Shown here: positions 29,669-37,649 of the stretch, one piece after another
Numbering within the stretch: position 1 is the stretch's first letter
Layout: every line of letters begins with the position of its first letter
Assembly: GCA_023257515.1 (NCBI GenBank)
Contig: JALRCA010000164.1
Coordinates: forward strand, 1-48,674
Direction of reading: 5' to 3'
From: Aeromicrobium sp.
GTDB taxonomy: Bacteria > Actinomycetota > Actinomycetes > Propionibacteriales > Nocardioidaceae
DNA: 48,674 nucleotides
The notes under the pieces: generated by a model
Seen by the model: only the letters and a program-made list of their open reading frames with translations
What the model was told of the DNA's origin: nothing
Databases searched by the model: none
Position numbers and translations under genes: made by a program

Positions 29669-30397
29669 TCAGGGGGTCCAGGCGCGGGTGACGACGTCGA
29701 CAGGGCCGGGGGTCAGTGCGGTCAGGGCCGCCCGGTGGCCGGGCGGGGCCGCCAGCACGAGCGCCCAGGCCCGCCGGGACGGGGCGTCGAGGAAGCGGAC
29801 GACCCCGTCGACACCCGGCGGTGGCACGACCACACGGTCCATCGAGGCCCTCAGGCCCTCGCCCGTCGCCTTGAGGGCGGACTCCTTCGCCACCCACGCA
29901 GCACCCAGGTGGTCGGACGTCCGCACCTGCCGCCGCTCCTGCGGAGCGAGGATCAGGTCCCGCAGCGCCTCGACGTCGAGGACCGACGACTCCTGCTCGA
30001 CGTCCACCCCGATCCGGGTGCGCGACATCGCGACGACCACGTGCTCGCCGCTGTGCGAGAGCGACACGTCCCACGGCGCACCCACGACCGACGGTCGCCC
30101 GTGCTGCCGGCCGCAGTCGTCGCACCGCCGCTCGATGCGGACCTGCGTGGGATCGACCCCCAGCGCGCCGCCCGCCACCTGCCGCAGCACCGTGCACCCC
30201 AGGACGAATCGCCGCCGGTCGTCCTCGCGGACGTAGGACCGCACCCGGACCCTCTCCTCACGGCTCAGGAGGTTCTCGTGGGTGGGCCGCAGCTGCGCAA
30301 GTGCGGCCCACCACACGTCGGCGGCCCCAGGGGGTGGACCGCCGTCCCCTCGGGCCGGCGAGGAGCTCGCCCGACCCGCGGTCGTCCGCGTCGACAC
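29669..30397 (-). CDS. Sfp-type 4'-phosphopantetheinyl transferase
   Basis: A 242-residue enzyme that attaches the phosphopantetheine arm of CoA to carrier proteins. The magnesium-binding GVDVEQE and the second signature WVAKESALKATGEG are intact, as is the RRFVLGCTVLRQVA CoA-binding region. It starts with GTG one base after the stop of the antigen-85-like gene, at the end of the synthase operon. The Pks13-like protein in that operon has two carrier domains needing this arm, so that is the likely partner (inference). In Mycobacterium this job is done by an unlinked PptT. Confidence 0.92.
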   Translation of the reverse strand: MSTRTTAGRASSSPARGDGGPPPGAADVWWAALAQLRPTHENLLSREERVRVRSYVREDDRRRFVLGCTVLRQVAGGALGVDPTQVRIERRCDDCGRQHGRPSVVGAPWDVSLSHSGEHVVVAMSRTRIGVDVEQESSVLDVEALRDLILAPQERRQVRTSDHLGAAWVAKESALKATGEGLRASMDRVVVPPPGVDGVVRFLDAPSRRAWALVLAAPPGHRAALTALTPGPVDVVTRAWTP

Positions 30398-30398
30398 C

Positions 30399-35856: not shown

Positions 35857-37649
35857 GCGTTCGACCCCGTCCGCTCGTACGACCCGTCGAGGTAGAGGTC
35901 ACGGGTCGCCGACCGGGCGATCTTGCCGCTCGAGGTCCGCGGCACCCGGTTGGGCTCGACCAGCACGACGTCGTGGAGCGCCACGCTGTGACGCTGCGAG
36001 ACCGCCATCGAGACGGCACGACCGACCTCGTCGTCGTCCCACGATCCCGGCTCGGCGTGCCGCGAGACCTCGGCGACGACCACGACGGCCTCGCCCTCGT
36101 CGGTGTCGACCGAGAACGCCGCGGTCCGGTGACGCCCGATGACGCGATGTGCGCCCTCGACCGTCGCCTCGAGGTCCTGCGGGTAGTGGTTGCGGCCGCC
36201 CACGATGATCAGGTCCTTGATGCGCCCGGTGATGAACAGCGAGTCGTGCAGCATCACGCCCAGGTCTCCGGTGCGCATCCACGGGCCGGCCGGAAGCTCG
36301 CCACCGTCCACGAGCTCGTTGCCGAACACCTCCTCGGTGAGCTCAGGCTTCTCCCAGTAGCCGGACGCGACGTTGGGCCCGTGGACCCAGATCTCGCCGA
36401 CGTGGCCGGCGGTGCGGCGCACGCCGGTGTCGGGATCGACGATGGCGACGAGCTGGTCGTTCGGCAGGCCTACCGACACCATGCGGATCGACTCCGAACC
36501 GATCTCCTCGGTCGCGGTGCCGTGCGAGAGCTGCACGACGTCGAGCTCGACGTCGAGCACCGCCTCGTTGGACTCGTCGGCCCGCTTCTCGGTGCTGCCG
36601 CTGACGTAGACGGTCGCTTCGGCCAGACCGTAGACCGGGCGCACGGTGTGCGGGCGAAGGCCGCAGGGGCCGAACGCGTCCTGGAAGGCGTCGAGGGTGT
36701 CCGGTCGAACCGGCTCCGCGCCGTTGCCGAGCGAGAGCACGCGGCTCAGGTCCATCGTCGCCTTGTCCTCCGCGCTCACCTTGGACGCCGCGTAGGCGTA
36801 GGCGAAGTTCGGCGCGAGGGAGACGGTGCTCGGGTGGTCGGCGAGCGCACGCATCCACCGGCTCGGGTCGATGAGGAACGAGATCGGATCCATCACGACC
36901 GTGTGCATGCCGCCGACGATGCTGCCTCCGACGACGAACACCAGGCCCATGTCGTGGAACAGCGGCAGCCAGCTGACGACCGTCGCGTCGTCTTCCGGCC
37001 GCGTGAGCGCGAGGATCGCCTGGCTGGCGTTGGCGACGATGTTGCCCTGCGAGATCAGGACTCCGGCGGGCAGACGCGTCGAGCCGGAGGTGTACTGGAT
37101 GTAGGCCAGGTCGTCCGAGTGCGGCGTCACCGGCTCCTCCGACGCACCGGGCTCGATGCCCTCGCGGTCGATCACGAGCACGTCGGCCGAGGCGCCGCCC
37201 GGCTGGCCGCGCAGGAACTCGTGCACCAGCTCCTCGTTGCCGGTGGTCGCGAGGACGAGCGCCGGGTCGCAGTCCGCGAACGTGGCTGCCAGGCGGTCAC
37301 CGTGGCCCGGCAGGTCGGGCGAGAACAGCGGCACCGCGACGACCCCGGTGCGCAGGCACGCCACGAAGTACACGACGTAGGCGAGCGACTGGGGGGCCAG
37401 GATGGCCGCCCGCTCCCCCGCCTCGACGTGGGTGAGCAGGTCGGCCGAGGCGATCTCGACGCGTCGCTCGAGCTCGGCGAACGTGATCGTCTCCGGCGCG
37501 CCACTGGGGTCGCGCAGGTAGTCGAGGTAGGTGATCGCCGGGCGATCGGGGGTCACGGCCGCCCAGTGCGCCAGGTGCTCGGACAGCACCCTGGACTGCA
37601 TGCGGCGGCCGGCCTCGCTGACGTGGAGTGTTCCGGACGAGACGTTCAT
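35853..37649 (-). CDS. fadD32: Fatty acyl-AMP ligase (FadD32-like FAAL)
   Basis: A 598-residue adenylating enzyme that activates a fatty acid as acyl-AMP and loads it on a carrier domain. Adenylation motifs are YIQYTSGSTRLPAGV and VYGLAEATVYVS; the C-terminal core has FITGRIKDLIIVGGRNHYPQ, the typical FAAL/FadD32 form, and the PRTSSGKIARSATRDL lysine loop. The order FAAL then synthase, with an ATGA overlap, mirrors fadD32-pks13 in Mycobacterium. The long-chain acid it uses is unknown. The ATG at 37649 was chosen as the first plausible start; another lies near residue 17. A 236-base gap separates it from recD. Confidence 0.93.
   Translation of the reverse strand: MNVSSGTLHVSEAGRRMQSRVLSEHLAHWAAVTPDRPAITYLDYLRDPSGAPETITFAELERRVEIASADLLTHVEAGERAAILAPQSLAYVVYFVACLRTGVVAVPLFSPDLPGHGDRLAATFADCDPALVLATTGNEELVHEFLRGQPGGASADVLVIDREGIEPGASEEPVTPHSDDLAYIQYTSGSTRLPAGVLISQGNIVANASQAILALTRPEDDATVVSWLPLFHDMGLVFVVGGSIVGGMHTVVMDPISFLIDPSRWMRALADHPSTVSLAPNFAYAYAASKVSAEDKATMDLSRVLSLGNGAEPVRPDTLDAFQDAFGPCGLRPHTVRPVYGLAEATVYVSGSTEKRADESNEAVLDVELDVVQLSHGTATEEIGSESIRMVSVGLPNDQLVAIVDPDTGVRRTAGHVGEIWVHGPNVASGYWEKPELTEEVFGNELVDGGELPAGPWMRTGDLGVMLHDSLFITGRIKDLIIVGGRNHYPQDLEATVEGAHRVIGRHRTAAFSVDTDEGEAVVVVAEVSRHAEPGSWDDDEVGRAVSMAVSQRHSVALHDVVLVEPNRVPRTSSGKIARSATRDLYLDGSYERTGSNA

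Follow-up and report, generated by a model that had tools for sequence, protein, structure and literature searches.

A putative Pks13-superclade lipid operon in an Aeromicrobium genome and its relatives in other actinomycetes

Operon and gene content

We analyzed a 48,674-nt stretch of DNA from Aeromicrobium sp. (assembly GCA_023257515.1, contig JALRCA010000164.1; a draft of 288 contigs, 87.7% complete), referred to here as the window, with emphasis on a four-gene operon on its minus strand (29669-37649). The operon encodes, in this order, a fatty-acid--AMP ligase (FAAL), a Pks13-like polyketide synthase (PKS), an Ag85-like acyltransferase, and a 4'-phosphopantetheinyl transferase (PPTase). 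A previous sequence-only reading had proposed this four-gene set; all four open reading frames (ORFs) are intact, and the Pfam and PDB matches agree with the proposed identities. The window gene set comprised 29 genes from a simple gene caller, ORFs cut at the window ends being excluded, and all were scanned with Pfam. The features of the operon are as follows:

35853-37649, minus strand: FAAL (FadD32/FadD23-like), first operon gene, 598 aa; AMP-binding and AMP-dom_DIP2-like matches
31549-35856, minus strand: Pks13-type synthase, 1435 aa, with the order acyl carrier protein (ACP)-ketosynthase (KS)-acyltransferase (AT)-ACP-nonfunctional ACP-thioesterase (TE) and no ketoreductase (KR) or dehydratase (DH); assigned from Pfam, PDB matches, and trees
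32371-32601, minus strand: nonfunctional carrier-like domain of the synthase, residues ~1086-1162 (approximate bounds), with LGGGLAE at 1115 at the position of the carrier serine
30399-31529, minus strand: Ag85/Cmt1-like acyltransferase, 376 aa, with an N-terminal signal-like stretch (judged by eye); Pfam Esterase and PDB matches
29669-30397, minus strand: Sfp/HetI-type PPTase, last operon gene, 242 aa; ACPS and AASDHPPT_N matches

The genes are closely packed: those for FAAL and the synthase overlap by 4 bases, and the next two gaps measure 19 and 1 bases. A promoter scan was empty, and two terminator-like sites were found, one of them inside the Ag85-like gene.

The first protein scored 561 bits against the fatty-acid--AMP ligase profile NF004509 and 494 bits against the FadD32 profile NF038339, both below the cut-offs (975 for NF038339). 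Its best PDB matches were FadD23 (404 bits) and FadD32 (376 bits), and it shares 42-51% identity with FAALs of related operons versus 37-41% with FadD32; by these comparisons we class it as a predicted FAAL but not as the FadD32 equivalog. The PPTase belongs to the Sfp type, with scores of 42.5 bits for ACPS (cut-off 25) and 30.2 bits for AASDHPPT_N (cut-off 27), while the HetI-like profile gave 58.8 bits, below its cut-off of 370. The idea that this gene accompanies the operon because the genome has no other PPTase was rejected, the genome having three ACPS-domain matches (contigs C79 and C253 and the operon); many operon-free members of the genus also carry two or three.

Domain organization of the synthase

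Pfam identified KS, AT, two PP-binding stretches, and a thioesterase in the synthase, and no KR, DH, or enoylreductase. The proposal that it has the Pks13 architecture with all active residues was borne out, every catalytic motif sought being present: LGLSS at residue 40 in the N-terminal ACP; DTACSSS at 269, EAHGTGT at 405, and NLGHLEA at 444 in KS; GQSMGE at 707 in AT; GLDSL at 1026 in the C-terminal ACP; and GWSFGG at 1241 and GDHISM at 1405 in TE. The best three PDB sequence matches were all Pks13 (868, 839, and 838 bits), and the next kind, MAS (638 bits), scored 230 bits lower. In the accessible part of a cryo-EM paper, a nonfunctional ACP directly before TE, in the order ACP-KS-AT-ACP-nonfunctional ACP-TE, is given for Pks13 (PMC11649247). 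The window synthase shows this order, free of reductive domains, and the PRDxxER segment of its nonfunctional ACP is common to it and all eight Pks13 rows aligned.

The synthase differs from true Pks13 in its score against the equivalog profile NF040607 (mycolic_Pks13), which is 1247 bits versus a cut-off of 2100 and versus 2583-2845 bits in 24 genomes of family code f5. This family is probably Mycobacteriaceae, as read from its Pks13 and Ag85 genes. All 24 single matches over the cut-off fall in f5, and the window has family code f1, in keeping with the earlier suggestion of a lineage outside the mycolate family. The segment between AT and TE is also shorter in the window protein (205 aa) than in Pks13 (382-481 aa).

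Phylogenetic placement of the synthase

Kinship was assessed with 58 PKSs from related operons of other genomes (operonic rows), 24 true Pks13 proteins, 14 ordinary PKSs, and six others. The true Pks13 rows all came from f5 genomes and exceeded the NF040607 cut-off; one more genome, the 25th, did so only when the scores of adjacent modules were added up. KS identity to the window was 58-67% for operonic rows, 52-58% for Pks13, and 47-56% for ordinary PKSs; the corresponding AT values were 38-48%, 29-38%, and 31-49%. TE identity reached 37-55% for operonic rows and 33-39% for Pks13, and the ordinary PKS rows gave no TE match within the stretches compared.

The sequence-only reading had named placement of the synthase among ordinary PKSs as the result that would speak against it, and the trees point elsewhere. 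The KS tree separated 54 rows (the window, operonic rows, Pks13, and three further mycobacterial proteins) from all 14 ordinary PKSs plus one further row with a support of 98, and the AT tree reproduced this grouping at 93-94. A careful KS+AT analysis comprised 42 rows, 6 of them Pks13 and 22 operonic. In its tree, 26 rows split off at 96/93 (the window, the 6 Pks13, 18/22 operonic rows, and one other), among them rows from Frankiaceae, Pseudonocardiaceae, and Streptomyces; 31 rows (the window, the 6 Pks13, 22/22 operonic rows, and two others) grouped at 99/94. Pairing the window with ordinary PKSs was weakly rejected by the approximately unbiased (AU) test (p 0.032). On the KS, AT, and KS+AT trees and this test we rejected an ordinary iterative PKS, and we assign the predicted synthase to a Pks13 superclade that stands apart from ordinary type I PKSs.

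The window synthase lies outside the mycolate Pks13 clade in the best KS, AT, TE, and KS+AT trees, and in the TE tree Pks13 stands apart from all operonic rows, the window included. A single clade of the window and Pks13 was not rejected (AU p 0.33), and the same holds for a sister relation between Pks13 and the operonic core (p 0.51). Our first reading of the trees, with Pks13 nested inside the operonic group, was dropped since the AU test shows no preference for it over the sister relation. The branch leading to the window is long in the trees of AT (0.88), TE (0.82), KS+AT (0.78), and Ag85 (0.77).

As a separate observation, three f5 genomes (G205, G082, and G282; loci L191-L193) carry a second Pks13-like KS-AT synthase with a KS 60-61% identical to that of the window; it is distinct from the Pks13 locus and shows no TE match in the stretch compared, and in two of these genomes a FAAL adjoins it.

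Extender selection and carboxyltransferases

The specificity motif of the window AT reads VAGH. Operonic rows have [G/A/V]AGH in 52/58 cases and Pks13 has GA[G/S]H in 24/24, whereas ordinary rows have VASH, YASH, HAFH, or IATH; HAFH or YASH occurs in 7/14 ordinary rows versus none of the 58 operonic and none of the 24 Pks13 rows. According to the part of PMC10646177 available, HAFH corresponds to malonyl, YASH to methylmalonyl, and VASH to ethylmalonyl extenders, and a VAGH domain is given no precise prediction there. GAGH was found in 41 of 42 operonic rows linked to an acyl-CoA carboxylase carboxyltransferase gene (AccD), the other having AAGH, versus 7 of 16 rows without AccD, an association that is post hoc, ignores kinship, and includes some short stretches. 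Two of the 58 operonic rows share VAGH with the window, and neither shows AccD in the stretch compared. The extender is predicted to be branched and may be shorter than in mycolates; the alpha-branched beta-keto product proposed earlier appears plausible.

As the sequence-only reading had stated for AccD4 and a reductase, the Pfam scan of the 29 window genes gave neither a carboxyltransferase nor a short-chain reductase. The genome search for accD4 that it had suggested returned five carboxyltransferase matches, of which the nearest to operonic AccDs is L004 (63% identity). This protein is a housekeeping enzyme, because its type is present at ≥84% identity in 46/49 genus genomes, our own included. 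Neither a dedicated AccD nor AccD4 was found among the 29 window genes or the five genome matches in this 87.7% complete assembly, so the extender would probably be supplied by a housekeeping acyl-CoA carboxylase.

Ag85-like protein and cell envelope

The best PDB sequence matches of the Ag85-like protein were Corynebacterium glutamicum PS1 and Cmt1, followed by Ag85B/A/C, and the catalytic Ser-Glu-His triad is retained. Of the two features on which the Ag85-like assignment had earlier been based, the intact serine stands, and the NGTHSWPYW end is not diagnostic, since a further esterase encoded in this genome (L001, 29% identical) has the terminus VGTHSWPYW; the motif evidence for Ag85 is weaker to that extent. 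In the Ag85 tree, the window protein joins Frankiaceae proteins with a support of 88.

The LDG[LM]RA segment, present in 16/16 mycolyltransferase rows from seven f5 genomes (14 without duplicates), is replaced by LPGASDK in the window protein. It is absent from 61/61 operonic rows (a few duplicate loci included) and also from 61 other rows of the same table (some duplicate operonic loci included). We take its Asp and Arg to contact trehalose, although no paper among the matches listed by a literature search carried either residue name. A search for EmbC-type arabinosyltransferases, positive only in C. glutamicum among 14 control genomes, gave no match in the 87.7% complete window genome. It is therefore unlikely that the organism has a mycomembrane or that trehalose is the acceptor, and a mycolate-style attachment to trehalose or arabinogalactan is unlikely as well. 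Candidates for MmpL3 in the genome comprise ten MMPL-domain matches; in the aligned segments, these share 27-43% identity with the MmpL that neighbours an operon of family f18 (L061).

These data bear on true mycolic acid synthesis, in which the organism would make trehalose mycolates and a mycomembrane. The enzyme set and the Pks13-type domain order are those of mycolate producers, and the AU test tolerates a clade of the window with Pks13. Even so, we consider this reading very improbable and rejected it on the equivalog score, the missing LDG[LM]RA, the negative EmbC-type search, and the search of the 87.7% complete assembly in which no dedicated AccD4 was found; moreover, 48/49 genus genomes show no such synthase, which indicates that the envelope of the genus is independent of it.

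A different account would regard the operon as a natural-product cluster that yields a free, secreted beta-keto lipid, unbranched or short-branched (malonyl, methyl-, or ethylmalonyl extender). The Ag85-like protein would then be a normal secreted esterase whose role is to trim or inactivate the product, not to attach it to the envelope. Several of the findings above suit this account: no dedicated AccD was found, VAGH departs from the GAGH/GASH of all 24 Pks13 and is shared by two operonic rows AccD-free in the stretch compared, the AT is as identical to ordinary ATs as to operonic ones, and LDG[LM]RA is missing. A PPTase within the operon and occurrence in a single genome of the genus also fit natural-product clusters. 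We nevertheless judge this account unlikely, though worth serious attention. Synthase and Ag85-like gene occur together in several families, a recurrence that speaks for coupled transfer; the best solved relatives of the Ag85-like protein are acyltransferases, and the nonfunctional ACP of Pks13 is retained.

Occurrence in the genus and genomic surroundings

The operon synthase was found in one of 49 genus genomes; four others have different PKS matches at 32-47% identity. Two same-genus genomes, G026 (C1:3338064-3366713) and G327 (C17-C19), contain long PKS frames with 36-47% identity that appear to be ordinary modular PKSs. At 1e-40, the Ag85-like protein was detected in 2/294 family genomes; the second of them, same-genus G255, has the gene alone (L055, 9593-10567; ~38-40% identical), with no PKS or FAAL in the 20-kb stretch compared. 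Three further features of the window are as follows:

37886-46253, minus strand: recD-recB-recC, conserved flank upstream of and outside the operon; identified by Pfam and same-genus comparison
28378-29622, plus strand: conserved gene on the other flank, with no Pfam match; near recD in two operon-free same-genus genomes
10771-13167, minus strand: large immune-inhibitor-A type M6 metallopeptidase, identified in the Pfam scan of window genes

In G327 and G315, homologs of the 28378-29622 gene and recD are parted only by one small gene, i.e., the site exists without the operon. Both flanks occur there in the same order, with 63-66% identity for RecB/RecD and 66-67% for the 28378 gene, whose G315 version also lacks a Pfam match; no homolog of this gene was seen in the stretches around the other 19 genus recD loci. 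Acquisition of the operon appears to be the simplest account of this pattern, with repeated loss as the alternative. The GC content of the operon (0.70-0.75) lies within that of the window (0.66-0.75), with no drop and no sign of recent entry.

A contaminant or chimeric contig might be suspected, since the assembly is a draft of 288 contigs and the synthase is missing from all 48 other genus genomes searched. With both flanks on the same contig matching G327 and G315 in the same order, and with no GC drop at the operon, we rejected contamination and regard an artefact as scarcely credible.

Related operons in other actinomycetes

Wider searches showed that the operon has relatives elsewhere in Actinomycetes. 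At 1e-20, the Ag85-like protein was found in 60 of the 296 genomes of our class sample. Among 20 stretches fetched around high-ranking matches, 16 contained a PKS, 14 of these also a FAAL (one being a true f5 Pks13 locus), and four had the Ag85-like gene alone. A scan of named genomes matched at least 595 stretches with at least 570 relatives, of which the best 80 were kept. A PKS lies near the Ag85-like gene in 46 of these 80 loci and both PKS and FAAL in 43, AccD being present in 37 of the 46; in 34 loci no PKS occurred in the stretch, some stretches being short, and no PPTase was detected in any of the 80. The PKS-bearing genera are Frankia, Pseudofrankia, Parafrankia, Amycolatopsis, Saccharopolyspora, Actinokineospora, Actinosynnema, Actinophytocola, Streptoalloteichus, Streptomyces, Nocardiopsis, and Planomonospora. 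The window operon belongs to this wider, unnamed family and is not a unique system; its function is a prediction.

Neighbours identified by Pfam in scanned members include AccD, major facilitator superfamily (MFS) transporters, a PucR regulator, cutinase, and MmpL. Of the 46 Ag85+PKS named loci, nine have MFS and one has MmpL, and MmpL is also found in L061. The MmpL genes near FAAL and Ag85-like genes in Nocardiopsis coralli (L103) and L061 hint at an export route. Streptomyces loci such as L057, L060, L118, L124, L128, and L136 have the order AccD-FAAL-PKS-Ag85, with genes for a PucR-type regulator and a cutinase after it; this cutinase is reminiscent of the Rv3802c gene of the mycolate locus.

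Two synthase layouts were observed. The short one has an AT-TE gap of 205 aa in the window and 97-205 aa in Streptomyces and is KR-free in L057; in an alignment of three such rows from Streptomyces, the nonfunctional ACP was kept by S. fildesensis L111 alone, as it is in the window. In the long one the gap is 813-1208 aa, with DH and KR in L049 and L061, and Streptomyces L134 is also long (967 aa). In 24/24 true Pks13 loci, the synthase is flanked by a FAAL and, at its opposite end, by AccD.

In a phylum sample, the Ag85-like protein was detected at 1e-40 in 13/396 genomes, four of them outside the class, with no PKS or FAAL within the 2.4-3.9 kb around the match in these four. Among plasmid records, 273 had a synthase match at 1e-100, none of them with a single place that covered 80% of the synthase, and eight had an Ag85-like match, one covering ≥80%.

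Discussion

Taking together the observed gene content, intactness, close packing, domain order, and kinship with the sporadic occurrence and the operon-free site in two relatives, we favor, with slightly more than even confidence, the reading that the operon is a horizontally acquired, self-contained Pks13-superclade module, which would join an activated fatty acid to a branched extender by condensation and deliver the resulting alpha-branched beta-keto lipid to an extracellular acceptor. The PPTase would prime the two live ACPs, and the FAAL would adenylate a fatty acid and load it onto the N-terminal ACP, from which the KS would take over. The AT would load a 2-carboxyacyl (branched) extender onto the C-terminal ACP, and one decarboxylative condensation would give an alpha-branched beta-keto thioester, which would stay unreduced on the enzyme because no KR is present. 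TE may then release the product or transfer it to a small carrier, an exporter encoded elsewhere would move it out, and the secreted Ag85-like enzyme would acylate an acceptor outside the cell; trehalose, bound as in Ag85, is probably not this acceptor.

Several points weigh against this reading. VAGH alone does not predict the substrate (compare the part of PMC10646177 that deals with another VAGH domain), and AT identity alone does not separate the window from ordinary PKSs. The exact tree position of the window is unsure because of its long branch. No transporter lies within the operon, and no dedicated AccD was found in the 87.7% complete assembly.

Beyond the window, and with rather less than even confidence, we suggest that mycolate synthesis may be one branch of an older and wider FAAL-Pks13-Ag85 class across Actinomycetes that makes exported alpha-branched lipid esters, also in organisms without arabinogalactan or a mycomembrane. 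The window operon would be a mobile version of this class reduced to a minimum, complete in its Pks13 domain order and equipped with its own PPTase; its undescribed product would be an alpha-branched beta-keto lipid attached to an acceptor other than trehalose. In the accessible portion of PMC6194230, mycolic acids are described as exclusive to Corynebacteriales, a single order, and the origin of the mycomembrane is called a mystery; the part of PMC13324839 consulted reports the fadD32-pks13-accD4 cluster as conserved within the mycolate order. Among the matches listed from the open-access literature, no title or abstract start described a Pks13/FadD32/Ag85 operon outside that order; subscription papers lie outside this coverage. 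If Pks13-superclade and Ag85-like modules are indeed widespread in mycolate-free actinomycetes, the core chemistry could be older than the mycomembrane or could have passed from one lineage to another. The cell-wall chemistry of tuberculosis may then be more widespread than thought, with similar gene sets in Streptomyces, Frankia, and Amycolatopsis, and such organisms could serve as harmless models in which to study Pks13 and Ag85, both of them drug targets.

Among known systems, the Pks13/FadD32/AccD4 locus of Mycobacteriaceae resembles the window in a FAAL adjoining an ACP-KS-AT-ACP-nonfunctional ACP-TE synthase, in KS, AT, and TE kinship, and in the proximity of Ag85 genes (in L068, two upstream of FAAL-Pks13). 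It differs in that the window operon has no AccD, carries its own PPTase, keeps a one-strand FAAL-PKS-Ag85-PPTase order, and encodes a shorter synthase with the AT motif VAGH. The Ag85/Cmt1 mycolyltransferases share with the window protein sequence kinship, the Ser-Glu-His triad, and the GTHSWPYW end, but carry the LDG[LM]RA that it lacks.

The FAAL-PKS-(AccD)-Ag85 operons of Frankiaceae and Pseudonocardiaceae contain the nearest Ag85-like protein (52%) and reach 55% identity in TE and 67% in KS, and many have the FAAL-PKS-Ag85 order of the window. In contrast to it, many include AccD or MFS, their synthases are ~600-1000 residues longer between AT and TE, and the one Frankiaceae (f19) synthase scanned, L049, has DH and KR. 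The AccD-FAAL-PKS-Ag85-cutinase loci of Streptomyces likewise share the FAAL-PKS-Ag85 order, and the one scanned (L057) is KR-free; unlike the window, they have AccD upstream and a PucR regulator and cutinase downstream. Their AT-TE gap is 97-166 aa in most cases and, in S. fildesensis L111, 205 aa, the same as in the window.

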